Assembly: GCF_008831285.2 (NCBI RefSeq)
Contig: NC_045150.1
Coordinates: forward strand, 5,840,001-5,904,000
Direction of reading: 5' to 3'
Length of the DNA stretch: 64,000 nt
From: Nymphaea colorata
Lineage: Eukaryota; Streptophyta; Magnoliopsida; Nymphaeales; Nymphaeaceae
Shown here piece after piece: positions 16,170-64,000 of the stretch. The position numbers were made by a program, and so were the translations under genes. The notes beneath the pieces are model-generated. The model saw only the letters and a program-made list of their open reading frames with translations, made no database searches and was not told the origin of the DNA. How positions within the stretch are numbered: position 1 is the first letter of the stretch; each line of letters begins with the position of its first letter.

Positions 16170-17625
16170 TGCTCACTTGAATATTAGTTAAAGGTAATTA
16201 CAATGGTTTGAAAGAATTACCGGCTCAATGATTGGGAGATTTACAAACAGCCGGTCAGCTTTTGAAGTATTATATTTGGTACTGGACGTTTCAAGATAAT
16301 TCTCAGATAGCTGCCTCAACCATGTAAGACCATACGAAATATTGAGTGGGATTTGAAATTACAAGTATACCCTTGTGTTATCATTCTTCATCCTTTTTCA
16401 ATGTTTATTTAGGAAAAACCACTTTAAGCGCAAAACTCTCAAGGTACCCTTATCCTTTCAAGGTTCAAAGTTTTGGCTTGCATTGAGATCTAAGTAGACC
16501 TATAATAAGTTTGAGGGTCGCATTTGTTATTGTTACAACTCGATCCATTTCTAAGTTCGGACTCTTGGTTCAGCGGATTTAAACTTGCCTCCTAGCAGTT
16601 TTGGTTTCAATCTTAAAGAGGATAGGAATTAGGACAACCATCTGTTTAATAACATCTTTTATAAGTTTTTGAAGATTCGAATCTTCAATACGAGATTAAA
16701 TTTTTAAAGTGTTACAAAGACAATATTTACGAAATTCAAATTGCTAACCCTTTGCAGCCACCTTACTGCGTGCTTGCGCTACGACACTTGAAGCTATCAT
16801 TTTTCATCTTACAACCATCGCTGCAAAAGGGATTTTGTCCACAACAACCAAGGAGTTACGATACAACATCATCCAATTCATGGGGGTTTGGGTAGCTTGA
16901 AATGAGCTTGGTTAAGCTCGAGCCAGGTTCTAGCTTGAGCCAAGCCGTTCATAAAATAGTACTTATTTAACCTGAATGGAAACGATCAGGTTCGGTTCAA
17001 ATTGCAAACTTGGTCCTTGCTAGCAAGGAGGAAACCATTGCAGCACCATTCCTTTTTTGTGATGGCAACATGACATGTCTTTCACATATTCTATTTCCAC
17101 AAGTTTAATCAAGTTTAGTGAGCTGGGCCTGTCTAGCTTGGGCTCAACTCAGTTTCTTAAAGAGTCACCTTTTAACTCGATCCTGACTCCTTTGACTCCT
17201 TTATCAAAGGAGTCAAGCTCCAGTCAAGTTCAAACAAGTAGGTTCAAGTCGGCTTGATGAGACATCACATAAGGTGAGCAATGGGGATCTGATTGAAGAG
17301 TTTTTTTGAGGGGCTCTAGCAAAGAAACTTGACCTCCCCAGATAACCACTAGCAGACTTCACCAGGTGGTGGACAAGGTTGGCCCTGTTTTGCAATCGAC
17401 CCATAAAACCTTGTCAAAGTTGTTGTGGACTCTCAGCGATGCCTCTGCTTCATCATCCCCTTTCTTAGCTTAGACGAGAATGACATTGCAAAAGACGTGC
17501 ATGATGGGACTAGGAGTAGGAAGTCTTCATACAATGGCCAATTCTGCAGGCATACATAAAGACAGGGACCTTCTTGTTGGAACCAGAGAGAGAGGAGTGA
17601 GGTAGAGGCCAACGGAGACACCAGT
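15903..17625. other. Repeat-rich intergenic DNA
   Basis: No gene is seen. An AT microsatellite lies at about 16137-16166. 16880-17010 and 17100-17260 are degenerate AGCTCGAGCC/AGCTTGAGCC-type words of the dispersed CTCGAG repeat family. The rest is unassigned. Confidence 0.45.
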
Positions 17626-24978: not shown

Positions 24979-27900
24979 TTCTGGTGATGCCGGTGAAAGA
25001 GAGAGAGGTTGAACTTGACTTACTGGCATGTCAGAAAAAGTATCCAGCAACTATGCCATTGGTGAGAGACAGAGAAAGGTGAAGTAGCGACAGCCAAAGG
25101 AGGCCTCAAGGTTGCCATCTTGCTGGTGAGTCACTTGCATGCCTGTGATGTCATTAGATGGCAGTCATGGATCGTTGGGTGCTGATGGAAGGGGGAAACC
25201 TATTGGCAGGGGTGGTTTTATTTTCAGCTACCATCAAAAGAGGGTCCTGGCAGGTATTCCTCTTTAATTATAGAATTTAACTTTTATTATTTAATTTTAA
25301 AAGAAAATAGACTAAAAGACCTGGTCAAGGTTGACTGAGTCTATACAAAGGCAAAATTGACCACAGTAGACATGGCATTGACTCTGTTGGGGCCGAGTCC
25401 AGAGCCACACCTCTTTCTGCACCTGTGTCTGGTGTGTCAACATAGGTGCATCAACTTTTTTGCCTTGTCCATGTTACATACATGCCATGCCATGTCAACT
25501 TGTTTAGGGTACTGGGGGCATCTAGGTATGCAAGTTATTAGGGTTGTAGACCTTAAATTGCAGTTGAAGCGCATATTTACCGAACAAATACAATTGCCCC
25601 GATAAGATACTCCTTTCATTCTTCCTCTATGTTGTTTACGAAACCTGGTTCTTTTGGGGTTATAGTTGATGGTAGTGTCTCAATTCCATCTCTACTATAG
25701 AACCGGACATGAGAGTTTCTTCTCATCCAGCTCCTCGCGAATGAAACGATAAACAAACAATAAATAATATTAGGATTATTTAATGGATGAAATTTCGCGG
25801 GCGAATATTTACTCTTTTATATTTATCTGCTTTATTCGTAGGGTCACTCCATAACCTCTTCGAAGAAACCACTTCGTTCCTGGCGCGTTCCGCCATCCCG
25901 TCCAGTGAATCATTAGGATTCGTTTTCAATCGAATCCTCCGCAGTCGCAGGTTCCGTCGTTCCCATAGCTTCTCCTCCATTAATGTCGAGGTCTGAATTC
26001 TGCAATGGAGCTTCTAATTTAATCTGTCCCTGAGTCAATCTCCTCAGTCTCTATCGACTCAATGCTCTTTATTTTTTGAAATCTGTCTCAATTATAGATG
26101 AATTGAATTATATTATAGTATATGATGCCTTATCACTTTGCCCTTTCTGAGATGATTCATAGACCATACATATTGGAATAATATATCATTTCTTTTCCCC
26201 TTCTCTCCTTCTCTCATCCTTCCATTCATCCGCATCCCTCTATTTTGGTTTCACAACTTACACAATCAATCAAGATTAGACAATTTATTGATTCTGTTTT
26301 CCTAGTCAGCTGCATCCAACCTGAACTATGTATTCAAAGGTTATTCATTCTTAGTTAACTATATATCTTTGACATACTTTAGAGCTTTAATACATGATTC
26401 GGTGTTTAGTTAAACTGGGACATAATCTGGTGGAATCTTACATTTCTCATGAGCTTTTAATTTATATATCTCTTATCAAAACTGACTCAAAAGAAGGAAA
26501 ATGGAAAACAGTTGCTGTCTGGAACAAATTTGGTAGCATGGAACCATTTATAACGTTTTTTGTGTGATAAACCTTCATTTTTGTGATTCTTCTCATTATT
26601 GCTTGGAACCTTTGTCCTTATTATATTTTCTGGTGAAGTTTCAATTGTTTTCTTACATGTACATTGTTTTTTATGACAGATAAACAAAAGAGGGGAAAAT
26701 GTGGATGAAAAAATAAAAAAACTTGATGCAGAGCTTGCTAGATATAAGGAACAAATAAAAAAGACAAGGCCTGGTCCTGCTCAAGAGGCTGTCAAAGCTC
26801 GCGCCATGAGGGTTCTCAAGCAAAAGCGGATGTAAGTTTGCGCTGCACACTTTTACAAAAGCTTGTAACATCCTACCATGAAATAAGTGTGGTTGAAGTT
26901 CTTTTCCTTTTCCAAGTATCGATTTTCACTTCATTGTAAATTGTTTAAATGGTTAACGTTTATACTTGTTTCATCTGGCTTTGCATATTTGAATATGTAA
27001 CATTACATCATGGTAAATCGTGCCAGGATAGTCAACTGCAATTTTTGAGGTCCTTTAGGCTTCATCTTGTTAAACTCCATATACAAATTTAAACGAATCA
27101 ATTTTTTTGGAAGTCATACTTTACATTTTTGGTGCATCGGTGTTACATAGACCTAGTTTTATGTCAAGTTGTTAATATCTATTAGAAGTTTTTCACTAGA
27201 GACTGTCTTAGGTTCTCAACCAAATAGTTGGATTGCCATGACTCCTGGACACTTGTTAGAATGAACAAATCATGCAGTTTGGAAGATGGTTTTTGTGACA
27301 CATGCATTCATTTCAATTCAGCAAGTTCACTCTGTTTTCAAGCTATGACATATATAATCACTTCCAAAGGCCCGAGTTACAGAGCCCTTTTATAATCAAT
27401 TAAGGGCAAATTCTTGATTGGACCACCATGAAAGAAGTTAAAACACACGGGGATAACTTAAAAAATAAGTTGGAAAGAGATAGATAACAATGTCTGGCAG
27501 ATGCATGGACAAATTCATGGGCAAGAGGATTGATAATTTTCTTGTATATTGTTTAAAACGTATTATGTTTTAGAAGTTGCTGATTTGTCAGGTACTAATT
27601 ATTCATGTATTGTATCATATTTTTGATGATGTTGTGAAAGAGGTAAGCCTTGAAAAGTTTGTGTAGTTCATCACAAATATTGCAACAAATGATAGAGCTG
27701 GAAGCAAAATGGTTACTGCGATATAGGTCAACTATTAAACAATGCCGTGCATCTATAGTTATGTTTATGATGTTGAGTTTGATTAAAATATATACATATG
27801 GAGGTGAATTTAAATGTACTGTACATCCACATGCATATAAATGAAAAAGTCAAGGGAAATTGTAAAATATTGTATCAAACAATAAGTCCTGGGAATTGCA

Positions 27901-30900
27901 TGATGCCCTTGGTTAAAGTTCTAAGATGGGTTAGGCCTGCTGTGAGATATGTCTATGAAGTCATGAGGAAAGAAAAAAGGCAATCATAGAGCAGACCCAA
28001 AGAAAAGAAGAAATTTGTTGGTGTACTTTGGAGATTATAGATGGGAAGGTTGACTGGCCAACTTTGTCATGCTCTTCATGGTAGCCCCTTAATATACCCT
28101 TCAGTGAGATATTCAACAACAGTCCATATGTACAGAGAAGTGAATAAGAGGCTCTCAGATTGCATTGAGACATTAGTCCTTGAGCCTGACTTGTAGAAGC
28201 CGTTCATCTGTATACACAGATGAACACAAAATATACAAAAATATATGAATACAAAAATAATAAGAAACTGATATCTAAGTTGTAGTTTACAAACCAAAAA
28301 ATCTAACTGTTACACAGCTGTATAAGAATTTACACCATATGATTTTAATGATTCTTTTTTTAGTTGTATAAATTTGGGTATTTTTCCCCCATTTATACAA
28401 TTTGAAACTTGGAATTGTGAAAAACAACATTCCTCATACTGGAAAGCTGGGAGGTGCAAGGGACATATACAGGGGCAGATCTAGGATTCTTTGACATATA
28501 CAGGGGCAGATCTAGGATTCTTTGTTAGGTGACTGGATATGGTAAATGTTATGACTAAATGAAATTTATGGAAATTTTTCACATGTATGTTTTTCACATT
28601 TTTAGCAGGGGCCAAATTAGAATTTCTGAAAATTTTAAGAGCTAAAATATTATTTTTCAAAATCTTAGTGGGGTGCGGGGGGTGGGGTGTTGGTGGGGTG
28701 GGGTGTTGGTGGGGTGGGGAGCATGGCCAGCCAACCTCCCTTGGCTTTGGCACTGATAATATAAGCGTGAGAGGCTTGTTGGCTTGTCTCGTTCCATGTT
28801 ATATGGAAAATTTGGTGGATGAGAAATAAGTCTATTCATGAAGGTGAAATTGCCTAGGGAAGAGGTAGTATCATTAGTATGGTGTAGAATTGATGTAAAG
28901 ACACATCAAAGCAATAAGGTGGAAGGAAAAAGAAGGCTGATTTGGAGGATTTGTGGCTGAGGACGGGCTTGATGTGTAGCAAACAAAGGCACGGAGAGTG
29001 CAGTTGGCTGTTATTGGTTGTTCTTCAAGGGAGTAAGAAAGTTGTTGGCATCCTGGAGCATGCTGGGTATCAGGGAGAAGAACTGAGGGCTTTGAGTGTC
29101 ATGGACAGAAATGACGACACAGAGGTTAGCATCCTAAAATGGGAAGTGGAAGAAGGAGTTCTGGAGGGGTGCCACCTAAGTATATTCTCTAACAATAGGT
29201 CTTGGAAAAGGATGCTTAGGTCTTTATACATGGGAGACGTCATTGGCTCAAAGGTGGAAGGACATAGCTCAGAAGTGTAGTCATCTGCAGATTTCTAATG
29301 GGCCGGTGCCTTACTCTGCTAGAAGGAAGACCGTACAGTATAGAGATGGTGACTGTAGATACGAAGAGGGCTAACCACTTTTAGCTAGTGTTTTGGGGAT
29401 TCTTGGTTGAGTTTCCTGGGCTTTGTGTGCCATATGTTATCGCTTTGATGCTTAGCATTCCTTCTCAATTTTTCCTGTACGTTTATTTTTTTTTGGAATA
29501 ATATGGGCCTAAGTCCCTGCTAGGTTTCATTGGAAGCTGCTTCATTGCTAAAGTAATGTATCATAGATCTGGTATCTTGGTTTTGTGTCTGAGCAGACCT
29601 TTTATTTGCCCACTATATCTTTTCATTACCAATAGTAATGATTTTATCTGTGGTTCCATCACAAATTTGCATATGAAATAAAGCAGTTGTGGTAATACTT
29701 TGTTAAATACATGGTGCCGTGCTTTAGAAACTAGTTTCAATTAATATAAAAATTTCCACAGTAGAGAAGCTTTCCTCTTCCAAATACTTGTCTGGTAACA
29801 TATAAACGTGTTCTTCCAAATCACCATTCAAGAAGAGACCTTTTCATGTCCATGTGGTCTTTGGCTTACTAAAGCAATGATAATAAAAGCTTAGATGAAG
29901 TAACAGGCACTGGGCAATGGTCTCTTCTAATTTATGCTATATTTTTGAGCTTATTCTTTAACTACTAACCTTGGCTTATCCTTTTCTTAGACTTCTGCCG
30001 CTTTAGTTTATCCTTTAATTCTCATGTTTTACATTTTCACAAAACTTGTACGTCTGATTCATTACATTTATCGAATTAAAAATGATTTTTTGGTTTCATT
30101 TGTAACTGGTCAGTTTCTACAAGGAGATGACAAGATCTACATACAAGGGTTGAAATATTATAAGATACAATTTTTTAAGGTTAAAAATGATTTTTTGGTT
30201 TCATTTGTAACTGGTCAGTTTCTACAAGGAGATGACAAGATCTACATACAAGGGTTGAAATATTAAGATACAATTTTTTAAGGTTGTCTAATGGTTCCTT
30301 CGGATTTTCTAGGAAAGCTTCTGTGCTTCCAGTTTCCTCATTATTATGAGTGTCATCTCTAGTCCAATGGGTCAAGTTTTAGACTTTTAGTATCATTGTG
30401 AGCCTCTTCACAAATTAAGATGAGAGTCATTATTGTGAGAATCAATATTGTGATCATGAATACCAGGATAATTAAAAGAGCTCTTCTTTTGAGCGATATT
30501 GTCATCATTTGAAGATAATAAGCCAGGAAGAAAGAATATTCATTTTTGTCTTAGATTTACTCTTATGTTCTTGTTCTCAATAAAAATCATATTTTGGTGA
30601 AACAGAGTTTGTCAATTTTCATATGTAGCGTTTACATCTATTTTGATTTTGTGAATAACCAACAAATATACAAGAAATGACTGCAGTTTTATCAGTTTGA
30701 TTGTTTAAAACTAAAATATGACATTTACACTAGAAAGTTCCAAGTCCTGTACATCTTTTCAATTGAAAAAAAAAAAAAAAAACTATCCAATGAAAATGAA
30801 AATACCCTCTTCCTTAAATAGGTGGTGGCAAGAGCTTCTTGGGCCTAAAAGTTTTTGAAAAATCTTTGGAAAAGAGTGGGTCCTTAGTTCTTACTGATAT

Positions 30901-38100: not shown

Positions 38101-38880
38101 TGGTACCAGAGCTCGAAATCCTTCAACTGAAGGTGTGTTTTGTTGAATCATGGGCTCATGGCATCACCTAAAAATTGTGGAAGCAGTGGAAATACTAACT
38201 TAGAGTCGATCTCCTCTACTACGACTCCCCTAGGTCTGAAACTTCATATTCTGCCTGCCACTGCAAACTATTGGAGAGTCCATTGTTGCCTCTTCTTAAG
38301 AGCAAGAATGGATCCAAATCAAGACAAAGCATGATGAATAGCACCGTCTTGATCAATTTCTGTTAAGTTGGCTTTTCTCATTGTTAACACCTATTCACAG
38401 GCATGTTGTTGGCTATGGTACACCATGTGAGGTTTGGGCAGTGTTACATAAAATGTACACTGCCCTCTGTCGAAAGGGCCTTATTTCTCATATTTTGTCT
38501 ACGGCTTCCGAAGATTGATGTGAATACTTGTGTTGATCCTATTTACCCTTGAGGGCGTGTTTGGAATGCTACTTTCACATGAAGCACAAATGCCAATTGT
38601 TGGTGCAGCTGATCGTAGTACTGCAAGTCTTATGTTCAAGCCAAATCGAAATACTGGTAACTGCAGCAAAAAAAATGGAGGGAATCAAGGAGCAAGAAGT
38701 TCTGGTCGATCACAAAACAGAACTATGAACCGCATGGTATGTTGCAATCAAGGCCACATCTCTACTAATTAATTGTCTTACGACATGTCAAATTTGTGAA
38801 AAGCGAGGCACAATGCCTTCAAATGCAAGCGATTTCTATCCTCCGAGACTAAGAGTCGATTCCAGAAGCCTGTGAAGCTG
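38101..38880 (+). mobile_element. Copia-type gag remnant with primer-binding site
   Basis: TGGTACCAGAGC at 38101-38112 is a one-base variant of the initiator-Met-tRNA primer-binding site. Downstream, the plus strand retains a Copia-like gag C-terminal region. Near 38565 it reads MLLSHEAQM, then an Asn/Gly/Ser-rich stretch, then broken zinc-knuckle words (CCNQGH near 38740, CQICEKRG in another frame near 38790, AFKCKRF near 38820). Stops and frameshifts make it non-functional. No protease, integrase or RT follows. Confidence 0.6.
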
Positions 38881-40323: not shown

Positions 40324-41580
40324 AAGAGGTTATCTAAATCTATTCTATATACACTTTTCCTGATAATTGATCCATGACCACCACAATGAGACCTATGAAT
40401 GGCGCTTTACTAAAATAAAGCAGAAGCTCATAATATGTCTAAGAAAGAAACAAGCTGGTCACTGAAACACTTATATGGATGCTTAAGGGAGAGATCGATT
40501 CAACATATGGAAGGTCCTTTTTCGTAGAAGGAAATCACTAACACAGGCTGGTCGATTGGATTATGTAGAAGAAGATGGTTCATGACAAGCTTGAGTAGAA
40601 AATAGGCAACACAGATCAGAAGATCAACATTTATCATCATCATCAAATTGTTTGGATGGTTTGCATTTGTGAAGCCTGGATTCAGCCTTGTCAGTATCCC
40701 ATGAACTTGCAACTGCTTGTATTGTACTCTATCTGCTTTCCTTCATCAGCACTCTCATTGCACGATCTTTTGGTTCCCCACAAGAATTCCTATCGAAACT
40801 GTGGCTAGGTGACCGTCTGAAACTGGAAAAAGTTTATAGATAGGATCATCCAATCCTTGTCAGATGCATAGATGCCGCCAGATAACTAAAATTTAATAAT
40901 ATGTAGATAAAAATTTGTCACTATATGAGCATTAATTAGCGGCAGTTTATGATGCAATGACGATTTATGATGCTTTAACAATGTTTTAAGTTTCTTTTAG
41001 CGAACAATTTTTAAAATCTTTATCAATTCCACAACAATCTAGCATCTGCCAGCATTGGCTTTTTTTTTATATTACATAATATAGTGAACTATGAAATTCA
41101 CATGGTCATTCATCATTTGTCTGATGAAATTTATGAGAAGCTCACAGACGAAGCAAGACGGGTGGACAGCTGTGGAGATGTTGGCAGTTTACAGCTTGGC
41201 AAGCAATGAGGCTCACGAGGAATGGCATACTCTATCGCAGGAAATGATTGGATTTGAGAAGATTGATGTTGGAAATCTTATTTGATGTTTCAGTTTTGTA
41301 TCGGGGAAATAAATACGCCTACCCACGAAAGTTTGTTCTTAACCTTTGTTTTTAAAGCTTCACTTGATGTTTCGTGTTGTATAAGCTCTCTCTCTCTCTC
41401 TTTTGAAGTTCTACTTTCAAATTTTCTAACGGACATCACAACAACCATTGTGACAGCTTTTTGGCGCCACGATCTTATCTCTAATTTTACTCATCACATT
41501 TGCATCTGATAGTTTGTATGTTTTATGTCCATTGCTCTTTGATGTTTTTCGTTGAAATGAATTCGTTTTCAACTCTAGCT
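40324..41580. other. AT-rich intergenic DNA
   Basis: No gene, RNA gene or clear element is recognised. A CT-rich stretch lies at 41385-41402. Confidence 0.4.
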
Positions 41581-41585
41581 CTCTC

Positions 41586-42280
41586 TATAACACCCCAAAA
41601 GTTTAGTCCCGTATCGAAGATTGTTCTTCAAGGACTTATAAAGGGAGGCTTTAATGAGATGATTGTCTTGGTTCCTAGCCTTTTTGAGGTTGGATCCGAA
41701 ACTGCTAGGGGGCGGGTTGAGATCTGGGGGCCCGAGCCCGGGAGTGGATCGGGTTCTTATAGTGGTATCAGAGCCGGTTCAACACTCGGACCTGGGGTCC
41801 CACACGAGCGGACGCGTGTGCTTTAAGGGGGGTAGATTGTAACACCCCAGAAGTTTAGTTCCGTATCCAAGATTGTGAGGGATCTTCAAGGGCTTATAAA
41901 GGGAGGCTTTAATGAAATGATTGTCCTGGTTCCTAGCCTTTTTGAGGTTAGATCCGAAACTGCTAGGGGTCTGTCGAACCAAGGGCCCGAGCCCGGGAGT
42001 GGATCGGGTTCTTATAGTGGTATCAGAGCCGGTTCAACACTCGGACCTGGGGTCCCACACGCGCGGACGCGTGCTTTAAGGGGGGTAGATTGTAACACCC
42101 CAAAAGTTTAGTTCCGTATCCAAGATTGTGAGGGATCTTCAAGGGCTTACAAAGGGAGGCTTTAATGAAATGATTGTCCTGGTTCCTAGCCTTTTTGATA
42201 TTGGAACTGAAACTGCTAAGAGGCGGGTTGGGATCCGTCGAACCTTGGGCCCGAACCCGGGAGTGGGTCGGGTTGTTATA
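41586..42280 (+). mobile_element. Concatenated miniature LTR retroelement (TRIM-like), LTR-I-LTR-I-LTR
   Basis: Three similar LTRs (41586-41761, 41838-42016, 42091-42280; 176, 179 and 190 bp) are separated by two tiny internal domains of 76 and 74 bp. Each internal domain starts with the 18-base primer-binding site TGGTATCAGAGCCGGTTC (41763-41780 and 42018-42035), complementary in type to initiator Met-tRNA. Each ends with the polypurine tract AAGGGGGGTAGAT (41825-41837 and 42078-42090) directly before the next LTR's TGTAACACCCC. There is no coding sequence. CTCTC occurs at both outer borders (41581-41585 and 42281-42285) and may be the target duplication, although the site is CT-rich. The outer ends read TATAAC and GTTATA, probably decayed TG and CA. 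Confidence 0.85.
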
Positions 42281-42798
42281 CTCTCTCTCTCTCATAGTTT
42301 CCTTTTCTGACTAGCACGCAGTTCATTTTTAGGGTTTTCCTTAAATAATTACATGGATTCAATTTACATGCTTAAAAACCTACGTGTCAATGTTTTTTGA
42401 ACATGTAATATGAGTTTTAGAAGCCAAAAATGTTCATACTGCATGTAGAGGTTAAAATCTTAGCTGTACATTTTAAAATTTTCATTTTGCATTAATGTAT
42501 GATCTTTTTAATGTCAAGGTCAGGTCACAAGGTAAATTACAGAGAAAATGAGTAAAATATGTAAAAAACTAGGCATGTTTAAAGCCAGTCCAGAGCTATC
42601 CAAATCCTACAGAGACTGTCTGAGTTTTACATGTATTTTTTCAGTTGATAAAGGAGATAGACATAAGCAAAAGCCACCTCATTTAGAAGCGGAGCTTGAA
42701 AATTGTAGTTAAAGGGCAACAGATACAAAATTTTACATTTTTATGGGGCAACAATATGTAACTAAGAAAAATTGTTCAAAATGATTAATAAAAATAAG

Positions 42799-42845
<47 letters not shown>

Positions 42846-43490
42846 CGTGTAAGTAGTTGCTCACATGTAGCCCACACTATCTCCACCCTATTCCTCTTAC
42901 TTCCCCTTTGAAATCCATTTTCACTCCTCAATCTTCGAGGTTCAGGGCTGCTTCAGGACATCTGTGAGCATATGGTAATACATTTCATGCACATGCCATC
43001 ATTTAAGAGGAGTAACACCAATAAAAATCAAGAATCATTTACATATGCCTCAAACCAATCAGTTATGGTACGCCCCTTGAAGCAAGATGGATATAGACGA
43101 ACAAGTTAGAAGTGTAAGCATCGGTTGTCTGAATTTGGTATTACATATTCTATATTTGTAACATATATAAGGAAAAACAAAAAAAAAGTACTTTATATAA
43201 AGACTCAAACATAAATATGCCTTCAATGAGGTTTTATGATCTCTTTCTTGGAAGGATTTATCTTAACAGACAATTACGTTGTCAACAGGAGTTCATTTTC
43301 TTGTAGAGGGGACCATATTACTCGAGTGTCTTGCGAAGAACGCGAGCTCTGCTCGAGCTCTACCCGATTTCAAGTTCATTAGATCAAATTCGTCTCAGCC
43401 GGATTAAGCTCGAGCCGAGCTGAGCTGAGCTGAGCATTTCATTAAAAAAAGCAAGTTTTTAAAGAAATAGGAAGCATTGAGACTTGAACA
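42281..43490. other. Intergenic DNA with a long poly-T run
   Basis: No gene is seen. A run of about 39 T lies at 42803-42841. 43325-43440 belongs to the CTCGAG-type dispersed repeat family (GAGCTGAGCTGAGCTGAGC near 43417). Confidence 0.5.
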
Positions 43491-44390
43491 TGTTGGGATT
43501 TCTCCCCATAACGCATATACAAAATCAAACGTATATACCCTGCCGGCCATCACCTCTCCCTGCCGTCGCCTTCCCAGCCGTCTCCTTTTCGTTCTTCTTC
43601 CTCTTTCGTGTCTGCGACGAAGGCGCGGAGGGCACCCAACGGCGTGGGTGCCGCCGGCAGGAACGCGCCGGAGGCTTGCCGTTGGCCAACGGCAACCGAC
43701 GACCACCGATCCAGCGTCTTGTTCTCCGATCCTCTTGAGTCCACAGACGGCTGCAACGGAAGCCCGACGGCTTCCGTCGCACGCCCTCAACCAAATTTTT
43801 TTTTATTTTTTTTGAAAAACTTGCAGCCGAAGAACCAAATGGGGAACATCCGAGGGAAGAACGCACAAAAAAAAAAACCATCCAAAAGATCAACGATTCA
43901 ACAATGAGCATAGGCTCTGATACCAAATGTTGGGATTTCTCCCCATAACGCATATACAAAACCAAACGTTTATACCCTAAACAGGATCATGCTCTTGCTA
44001 AATCATTGAAATAAACGAAACTTTAAACTGAAGTGGAAGCGTACCTGAATCCATCTGATCTGGTGCACGAGAAGATCGCAGCAGGGTCTTCCAGGGTACG
44101 TGCGCGTGAGGTCTCTCTCAGATGGGGAAGAGAAAACCCTAGAAACCAAAAGCAACTGTTCGTACGACCCCAGGGACCACTACCATTATATAATGAGGAC
44201 AATTACGGATTCCACCCATCAAAGAGTCCGTAATTGCGTACTGGTATCTATACATTTTAAAATTACCCCATACCATCTAAAATGACGTAATATCCCGAAA
44301 TGTAATCACTTAAGCGGATATTTACATTAAGACAGCCATAATGTTTGAAATTCCTCATAGACATATGCCGGCCCACCAAATGATCTTACA
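43491..44390 (-). mobile_element. Non-autonomous LTR element with GC-rich internal segment
   Basis: A ~900-bp insertion is flanked by a perfect 5-bp direct repeat GAACA (43486-43490 and 44391-44395). Read on the minus strand, a complete 5' LTR of 463 bp (44390 down to 43928; TGTAAGATC to TCCCAACA) is followed two bases later by the primer-binding site TGGTATCAGAGC (43925-43914). A ~370-bp internal segment comes next, then only the last ~50 bp of a 3' LTR (43540-43491), which matches the end of the 5' LTR with few changes. The internal segment 43541-43800 is strongly GC-rich, unlike its surroundings. It does not resemble gag or pol and may be captured host DNA. The PPT and most of the 3' LTR are lost. 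Confidence 0.75.
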
Positions 44391-61600: not shown

Positions 61601-64000
61601 TATGCTAATTTAACATAAATCATGCTTTAGTTTAACCATTTTTGTAAAAAAAGTGATCATTCTAATCAAAATTTTGATGTTATAAGAGACGTTTATTTTT
61701 TTATTATTAAAAAACATTATTTAGGTAAGAAAATGATTAAATTAATATATGTTTCTCACCATATCACTCTTAAGATCATATCCATAAGGGTTAGATCGTA
61801 AAAAAAAAAAAAATTAATAATTAATTTAACGGGACTGGTTTTTGCCTTTTGTCCAAATAATCCGGTTTTTACCAACTTATATAGATATATAATAGTGACA
61901 TTCAGTAAGTCAAATATTGCAGCGGGACGAGACTTCAAATTTCCGCAGACAAAATGGTTATGGACCCGACTCCTCTGAATTGCGTGAGTCTTTATTGAGT
62001 CTTTGCCTCCTTGACCCGACCCATCTAAGGTCCGGTCAGGGATACTCGCGGTCAAGCACACCGTAGCTGACCATGTCTTGTCTTGAAGCCACAATTAATT
62101 AATTGACAACAAAAGTCTTAAATTATTTCCGATAATCAATTTTGATGACCTTTGGATTTGTCCAAATTCATCCTCATCTCATTGCTCTTGACAAGCCGAT
62201 GCCTGCATTTTATGTAGGGCTTGAGAGTTTGAATCTATCACCTCAGAAATGTTTTTTGTTTGAAGAAGAACGTGATATAATGTCGTAGAATAATAAAAAC
62301 GGTGCGAACCCAATTCCTTGAAGCTCGTAGAGTTAAGTGGGCTACGCTCCGTTAAACTCGGTTAAGCTCGGGAAAGAAAATATATAACTTATCAAAAAAA
62401 GTAGATTGGTATGTGGGAGGTTTTATGTTCAAGTCTAGACATATGCCACCTCTTACTTTAAAAACATACATTTTCTTAATGGAATGTTTGGCTCGGTTCA
62501 AGCCAATGTTTGACTCGAGCATAATTGAGCCGAGTTCGAGCTAATGAAATCGAAGTTGAGCTCGAGCCGAGTTCGAGTTTTTTTCAAGACATGCAAGCCG
62601 AGTTCACTCAAACTCACTCATGAACAGCCCTAGGTGGGTCCCCACTGTATGGAGTCATCCTTACCCCTCTTTCTCTTTCTCTTTTTCACTAAGTGGAACC
62701 GGTTTGACTACATGGCATGTATTAACTATGCTATGGGTAACATTGAAGTGTGTTATTTTGATGGTATTGAATAATATTGATTTGAGATAAAAATTACCAT
62801 TCTCGAGGCTAATGTGGCTGGGTCATATATATAAAAATAAACATTTTTTTGGGGTTTGTACCCACAATTGCCCACACAGTGCCTACACCTACCTCCACCT
62901 CTGTGAACTTGGTTCCCATGTTTTGCAAAAAATTACATTTTTTACTTGATCAAATTAATTACATAAACCTAAGAGCAGCGGCCTGCCCACAAAATTCTAC
63001 TTTCTAAGAAATTTTGAACTTCCTGGGTCCAAGTAATGACGTCTATATATATATATATATATATACATTGTTCCGACTCTTCTTTCAAACGAAAATAAAC
63101 TGACTGAAAATGTATATTGCCTACCCCGCCGTCCACCCGGTGGGGACGTGAAATTTTCAAGTTTGAGTCAAATATTATGGAAACAGGTTCATATCTGAAT
63201 TAATGGGCTAGGTTACAACTAATCTGGGCGATGGGATTCATAAATTTTAGAATCTTTCCTATAATTAGCAACCTTCTAGGCTTCTGAAATCCACAAATTT
63301 TTGTTTAGTTCTATTAAAAAAGATCATGTCCATCCATAGAAAAAATTACCATCTTTCTTGGAGGAGAGCGCTCTAATTAATTAACAACAATTAATCACTA
63401 TAAGCTGCAGCATCAGGTTGAAATACGTATGGGTTGGTGATGACTCCGGTGCCCCTTAGTCAAAATATTGTGCACCACCTTCAACGTTGATGATGTTCAA
63501 TTGATCTTAAACTCAAGAAGAAAAACTCAACATTTCCTATAAGGCTACATTAATTAATAATCCACCAATTTTGCTGATATCTGAAACTATTTATATAGAG
63601 GCTGTTACTGTGATTTTGCATGTCCAATTTGACATGATCAATGGACCTTCAACGCCTCTGAAATGTATAAAAAAAAATTTATATCTATAAAAATGGCAAG
63701 ATTCAGTTATTTATAACTAGGACAATACATTTTTTTATAGAAAAAAATTTGTCAAGTCGATATAATGTTATCGGTCAACCATGATGATCAAATTTACATG
63801 GAGAGATCAGGTTAGACTACAATATGAAACATTGAGAAAAAGAATCCGACCAATTTACATCCTTTGAATTAGACATCCTCATGGAAAAGAATGACGACCT
63901 GAGCTTGAATATGAATACTGGATTCCACGATTAATAATGACTTGTTGAAAAGATGGACCCTTGAAAGGAAGAGTCTGGTCGACACAGCCATACACACATG
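58621..64000. other. AT-rich gene-free DNA to the window end
   Basis: No gene is recognised. The adjoining Copia LTR may extend into the first few hundred bases. 60183-60228 has a short tandem duplication (ATGTTTTTGTAATTTATAAA). 60290-60365 resembles the PPR promoter region. 62310-62633 is a CTCGAG-type repeat whose right end reads ATGAACAGCCCTA, a hAT-like terminus. AT microsatellites lie near 61497-61516 and 63042-63066. Confidence 0.4.

Follow-up and report, generated by a model that had tools for sequence, protein, structure and literature searches.

How does a tandem array of miniature LTR retrotransposons come about: by recombination after a single insertion, or through insertion of an already concatenated copy? 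The question is posed by positions 41586-42280 of the 64,000-nucleotide stretch analysed here (the window), and a 2025 paper still called the origin of tandem LTR structures, post-insertion recombination versus concatemer insertion, unresolved (PMC11899658). The element itself is ordinary, but an array whose outer LTRs had diverged before the duplication records the mechanism in its middle LTR.

On the plus strand the segment has the structure LTR-I-LTR-I-LTR (L3I2), in which, as an earlier note made from the sequence had described and repeat analysis confirmed, three LTRs alternate with internal domains of 76 and 74 bp (Table 1). Direct repeats run across 41588-42280 with a start-to-start spacing of 252-264 bp. 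Chance is excluded as the source of the array, because Tandem Repeats Finder (TRF) scores it at 1058 (period 253, 2.6 copies, 89% matches) and a BLASTN comparison of the array with the 64-kb window recovers its match to itself, offset by one unit, at E = 1.4e-165. Compared by eye over both sequences, the two internal domains differ by one substitution and one 2-bp indel. Each opens with a G followed by TGGTATCAGAGCC and closes with the polypurine stretch AAGGGGGGTAGAT immediately before the next LTR. The 13 contiguous bases of TGGTATCAGAGCC are presumably the complement of the 3' end of plant initiator tRNA-Met; a longer match requires a one-base gap, so that the initiator-tRNA primer-binding site (PBS) first proposed is retained, although its stated length of 18 bases is generous. 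Folding of the internal domains, run without shuffles, gave hairpins of -19.0 and -22.0 kcal/mol, from which no conclusion is drawn.

Table 1. Coordinates of the array, its flanks and its relative in the window; columns are those of the three-LTR alignment
Feature	Position	Strand	Description	Basis
5' flank, candidate target-site duplication	41581-41585	.	CTCTC, identical to 42281-42285	
LTR1	41586-41761	+	176 bp, TATAACACCCC...GGGTTCTTATA	alignment
Possible TATA box, LTR1	41637-41643	+	TATAAAG, column 58; presumed function	sequence
Internal domain 1	41762-41837	+	76 bp; PBS, then GC-rich spacer, then polypurine tract	
PBS-like site in internal domain 1	41763-41775	+	TGGTATCAGAGCC	presumed tRNA match
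LTR2	41838-42016	+	179 bp; mosaic, 5' part LTR3-like, 3' part LTR1-like	alignment
Possible TATA box, LTR2	41895-41901	+	TATAAAG; presumed function	alignment
Tract identical in LTR1 and LTR3	41927-41945	+	19 bp, columns 90-108; probable exchange point of LTR2	
Internal domain 2	42017-42090	+	74 bp	sequence
LTR3	42091-42280	+	190 bp, TGTAACACCCC...GGGTTGTTATA	alignment
Motif at the TATA-box position, LTR3	42148-42154	+	TACAAAG	alignment
3' flank, candidate target-site duplication	42281-42285	.	CTCTC, identical to 41581-41585	
Diverged solo-LTR-like relative	16531-16716	-	TGTAACAC...GTTGTAACA	BLASTN; ends from sequence

The segment is correctly classed as a TRIM tandem array, and in that respect it is not unusual. 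LTR lengths of 176, 179 and 190 bp lie within the approximately 100-250 bp given for the direct LTRs of TRIMs, and both internal domains are short, non-coding and carry a PBS and a polypurine tract (PPT), which supports the class and the L3I2 layout originally assigned. The suggestion that internal domains of this size approach the lower limit agrees with a nominal TRIM range of 100-300 bp, but not with the 72-bp domain of the maize element Wukong, described in the same source (PMC4528315). LTR1 begins with TATAAC, LTR2 and LTR3 with TGTAAC, and all three end in TTATA; the array therefore reads TRTAAC...TTATA instead of the TG...CA that is usual for LTR elements and that does not figure among the TRIM criteria in the available passages of the literature. 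These noncanonical ends may reflect decay or variation. The TATAAAG motifs of LTR1 and LTR2 could act as a TATA promoter.

For target-site duplications of TRIMs, 4-6 bp are expected, and CTCTC is present on either side of the array, in both cases within CT repeats, where it is only weakly diagnostic. CT runs adjoin the array at both ends; across the window, CT/GA runs of at least 8 bases amount to 288 of 64,000 bases in 24 runs. The flanks are compatible with insertion into a microsatellite, the 5-bp duplication by itself being weak evidence.

Two rival accounts of the array had been named by the earlier note as possible refutations. The array could be a non-mobile tandem satellite with chance PBS-like and purine-rich stretches, as might be suggested by the BLASTN result that the window contains a single array and lacks any intact stand-alone element. 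However, the array boundaries coincide with LTR ends, the flanks match, and PBS and PPT lie where they are expected. Moreover, a diverged, solo-LTR-like copy is found some distance away, near 16 kb (Table 1), and is the one dispersed copy within the window. Within 16535-16717, BLASTN matches it to the array at 73% over 139 columns (E 6.6e-18) and, in a second match, at 69.5% over 187 columns (E 2.3e-17). Its ends are TGTAAC...TAACA, and inspection by eye found no PBS after the LTR and no target-site duplication in its flanks. The missing duplication would suit a satellite, but this relative spans the LTR alone, and because of its position at 16531-16716 a purely local satellite origin of the array is unlikely; the satellite account as a whole is extremely improbable. 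It is also very unlikely, though less so, that the array is the terminal part, or an on-site deletion derivative, of a longer coding retrotransposon. Such elements are indeed regarded as the ancestors of TRIMs (PMC4717578), but the distance from PBS to PPT is 74-76 bp in either internal domain, which leaves no room for a gene, and the two domains are nearly identical. The array has discrete ends, and a BLASTN search of the window with the array found no longer element bearing its LTRs in the 64 kb.

At many positions the copy near 16 kb, which belongs to the same family, shows T or A in place of the C and G of the array. Closer to the array, the region 43490-43978 (minus strand) and the adjoining 44 kb may be what is left of another LTR retrotransposon. 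A direct repeat of 52 bp (96%) has the end ...GAGAAATCCCAACA on the minus strand, and one repeat copy is followed by a PBS-like TTTGGTATCAGAGCC, the other being seemingly cut to 52 bp. The segments 43327-43491 and 62425-62591 are inverted copies of a dispersed repeat (70.6% over 177 columns), and a 105-bp unit is duplicated in tandem at 30076-30285 (98% matches, TRF). Translations from 38131-38772 (plus strand) resemble, by eye, a decayed copia gag, and three translated pieces of it gave no Pfam match at E 0.01. Ten translated stretches of the window were scanned with Pfam and 6 gave matches, including an LRR receptor kinase, a PPR protein and DUF7138, which suggests a land plant genome. Rfam, also run on the whole window at gathering scores, marks pieces of plastid-type group II introns at 25659-26069 (minus strand; ndhA/ndhB D5 and rpl16 D1 models), perhaps organelle DNA in the nucleus.

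The history of the tandem is written in its middle LTR. The alignment of the three LTRs comprises 190 columns, 165 of them gap-free in all three; 145 of the latter are invariant, LTR1 stands alone at 6, LTR2 at 2 and LTR3 at 11, and one column is three-state. LTR1 differs alone at columns 2, 23, 31, 55, 79 and 89, and LTR3 at columns 60, 109, 110, 116, 118, 129, 131, 146, 165, 177 and 185. At the 18 gap-free columns that distinguish LTR1 from LTR3, LTR2 agrees with LTR3 at 6, with LTR1 at 11 and with neither at 1, the three-state column, which was left out of the breakpoint test. All six agreements with LTR3 fall in columns 2-89 and ten of the eleven agreements with LTR1 in columns 109-185. 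LTR2 is a mosaic, LTR3-like up to column 89 and LTR1-like from column 109. The exception at column 60 is a change in LTR3 only, since LTR1, LTR2 and the copy near 16 kb agree there.

With one breakpoint at its best position, 16 of the 17 columns are accounted for (exact P 17/12376, the breakpoint being free). The gain under a model of two segments is 9.98 log units, which was reached in 6 of 5000 rounds of shuffling the site patterns. Split by position, lone-LTR1 and lone-LTR3 columns are distributed 6:0 versus 1:10 (Fisher one-sided P 0.00057); the breakpoint was picked from the data, for which the exact and shuffle tests allow and the Fisher test does not, and the clustered columns 109, 110, 116 and 118 are perhaps non-independent, which would weaken all of these statistics. 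Against the decayed copy near 16 kb as outgroup, LTR2 and LTR3 are united by a non-outgroup state in 4 of the 6 columns belonging to the 5' part; for LTR1 and LTR2 the count is 6 of 10 columns in the 3' part. Indels add to this picture unevenly. GAGGGA, a 6-column indel within the 5' part, occurs in both LTR2 and LTR3 but not in LTR1, matching the mosaic expectation. In the 3' part, 11 columns are missing from LTR2 and 8 others from LTR1, both stretches being retained in LTR3 and in the copy near 16 kb. The three LTRs do differ, as had been remarked at the outset, but the "divergent segment" then singled out (41968-41980 compared with 42231-42245) consists mainly of two nearby indels.

Relative timing points in the same direction. 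The comparison of LTR-LTR divergence that the earlier note had proposed yields, at this locus, 19 differences in 176 positions for LTR1-LTR3, 9 in 165 for LTR1-LTR2 and 15 in 179 for LTR2-LTR3, the outer pair being the most different. Segments that would be duplicates of each other under a recombination model differ far less: 2/100 between LTR2 and LTR3 (columns 1-100), 2/71 between LTR1 and LTR2 (columns 101-190) and 1/74 between the internal domains (by eye), pooled 5/245 or 2.0% (Poisson interval 0.7-4.8%), against 10.8% for LTR1-LTR3 (Poisson interval 6.5-16.9%). Judged by 5/245 versus 19/176, and within broad limits, the age of the duplication would be roughly a fifth of that of the insertion. 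The view that the array is not the product of a very recent event is consistent with the insertion and less so with the tandem duplication, which is apparently much younger.

Taken together, the array is probably the outcome of one TRIM-type insertion, followed by divergence of its LTRs and then by duplication through unequal LTR-LTR exchange. The founder would have been a land-plant LTR retrotransposon of TRIM type, non-autonomous and present once as LTR-I-LTR (approximately 440-455 bp in total, with an internal domain of approximately 75 bp), which inserted into a CT microsatellite with reverse transcriptase and integrase presumably supplied in trans by another element. After insertion its two LTRs would have diverged, and the 3' LTR on one chromatid or homologue may then have paired out of register with the 5' LTR of the second. 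An exchange within the 19-bp identical mid-LTR tract would give LTR1, internal domain, hybrid LTR2, internal domain and LTR3, and the observed substitution pattern is the one that an exchange of a 3' LTR with the 5' LTR of a sister or homologue must leave. Short losses, one each in the 3' parts of LTR1 and LTR2, would have followed. Two such post-duplication deletions are required because the 3' indels are not common to LTR1 and LTR2 while LTR3 and the copy near 16 kb keep both stretches; this is a cost to the model, though the deletions are possible. The reading is drawn from one locus, with a target-site duplication in a simple repeat and LTR ends other than TG...CA.

Unshared 3' indels need no timing argument if a ready-made concatenated cDNA, made from read-through RNA or by template switching, had integrated as L3I2 and its LTRs had diverged later. 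In reverse transcription both outer LTRs take their U3 from the 3' end of the RNA and their R-U5 from its 5' end. Because of these common sources, the outer LTRs of a concatenated cDNA should be alike at insertion, whereas LTR1 and LTR3 are instead the most different pair; subsequent changes should also be spread evenly, whereas the lone LTR1 and LTR3 columns are split by position. Such an origin, which would fit the same 5-bp flank at both array ends and has been proposed for TRIM arrays in the literature (PMC7215508, PMC11899658), is therefore quite unlikely here. Between recombination and concatenated cDNA, left undecided in the earlier note, the mosaic middle LTR and the greatest distance between LTR1 and LTR3 favour the former. 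A mosaic of the same kind would also result if a cDNA of the same element, combining U3 of LTR3 with R-U5 of LTR1, e.g., as a one-LTR circle, had recombined into its own source copy. This would yield precisely the hybrid LTR2 seen, with the switch at columns 90-108 and a predicted start of R at columns 87-94, approximately 30 nt past the possible TATA box; the role of one-LTR circular DNA in retrotransposition is taken up in PMC11899658, where such circles figure as a source of tandem transcripts. However, the cDNA would have to derive from this very copy, the position of R is itself a prediction, and the switch tract is among the three longest tracts of LTR1/LTR3 identity (20, 18 and 19 bp), where ordinary exchange is expected. 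Recombination with a self-derived cDNA is accordingly improbable, but if true it would mean that TRIM arrays can grow through integrase-independent cDNA self-recombination.

The small internal domain, the tandem form and the recombination idea are all already known. Exact-pattern scans, with the PBS alone or an LTR end joined to it as the pattern, gave 0 matches for either of two patterns in viral contigs and 0 matches for one pattern in prokaryote genomes; neither result is informative on plants. A literature text search for strings of the element returned only papers unrelated by title. A limited literature search found no description of a mosaic middle LTR in the passages available, one further paper (PMC5333098) mentioning a recombinant LTR once, and no priority is claimed.

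Among the closest known elements by description is Wukong of maize, with 230-bp LTRs (176-190 bp in the array), the very short internal domain mentioned above (72 versus 76 and 74 bp) containing PBS and PPT, mostly 5-bp target-site duplications, and tandem forms (PMC4528315). Three LTRs were counted in eight of 89 intact Wukong elements and four LTRs in five, and two elements have six and seven; unequal crossing over or recombination between elements was already proposed by its authors (PMC4528315). Tandemly arrayed TRIMs are widespread, occurring in 129 subfamilies and in 35 of 43 genomes, and L3I2 accounts for 63 of 93 maize TRIM arrays (PMC4717578). These arrays resemble ours in layout; examples in a figure legend have 5-bp target-site duplications, and the available passages of that paper make no mention of mosaicism in the middle LTR. 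SMART (FRetro129), an LTR element that is likewise tiny and non-autonomous and contains PBS and PPT, has a 5-bp target-site duplication, but differs in its 85-bp LTRs, a 122-bp internal sequence and TGT...ACA ends (PMC3281118).

Cassandra also forms tandem LTR-internal-LTR arrays of TRIM type, but its LTRs contain a 5S rRNA sequence (PMC7215508). Rfam, applied to 41500-42400 with a cutoff of E up to 1, detected neither a 5S rRNA nor the hammerhead ribozyme that a retrozyme carries in its LTR, and on this ground the array was rejected as a Cassandra element and as a retrozyme; the run on the whole window at gathering scores likewise supports neither identification. The mechanism of tandem formation was left open both for Cassandra (PMC7215508) and for tandem LTR retrotransposons of rice (PMC11899658). 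LTR identity at the rice locus is 99%, and flanking SNPs left the mechanism undecided (PMC11899658), whereas the LTRs of the present array have diverged enough for the mechanism to be tested. The locus thereby offers a simple test for plant L3I2 arrays in general: whether LTR1 and LTR3 are the most different pair, and whether the middle LTR is a mosaic of a 5' part from LTR3 and a 3' part from LTR1.
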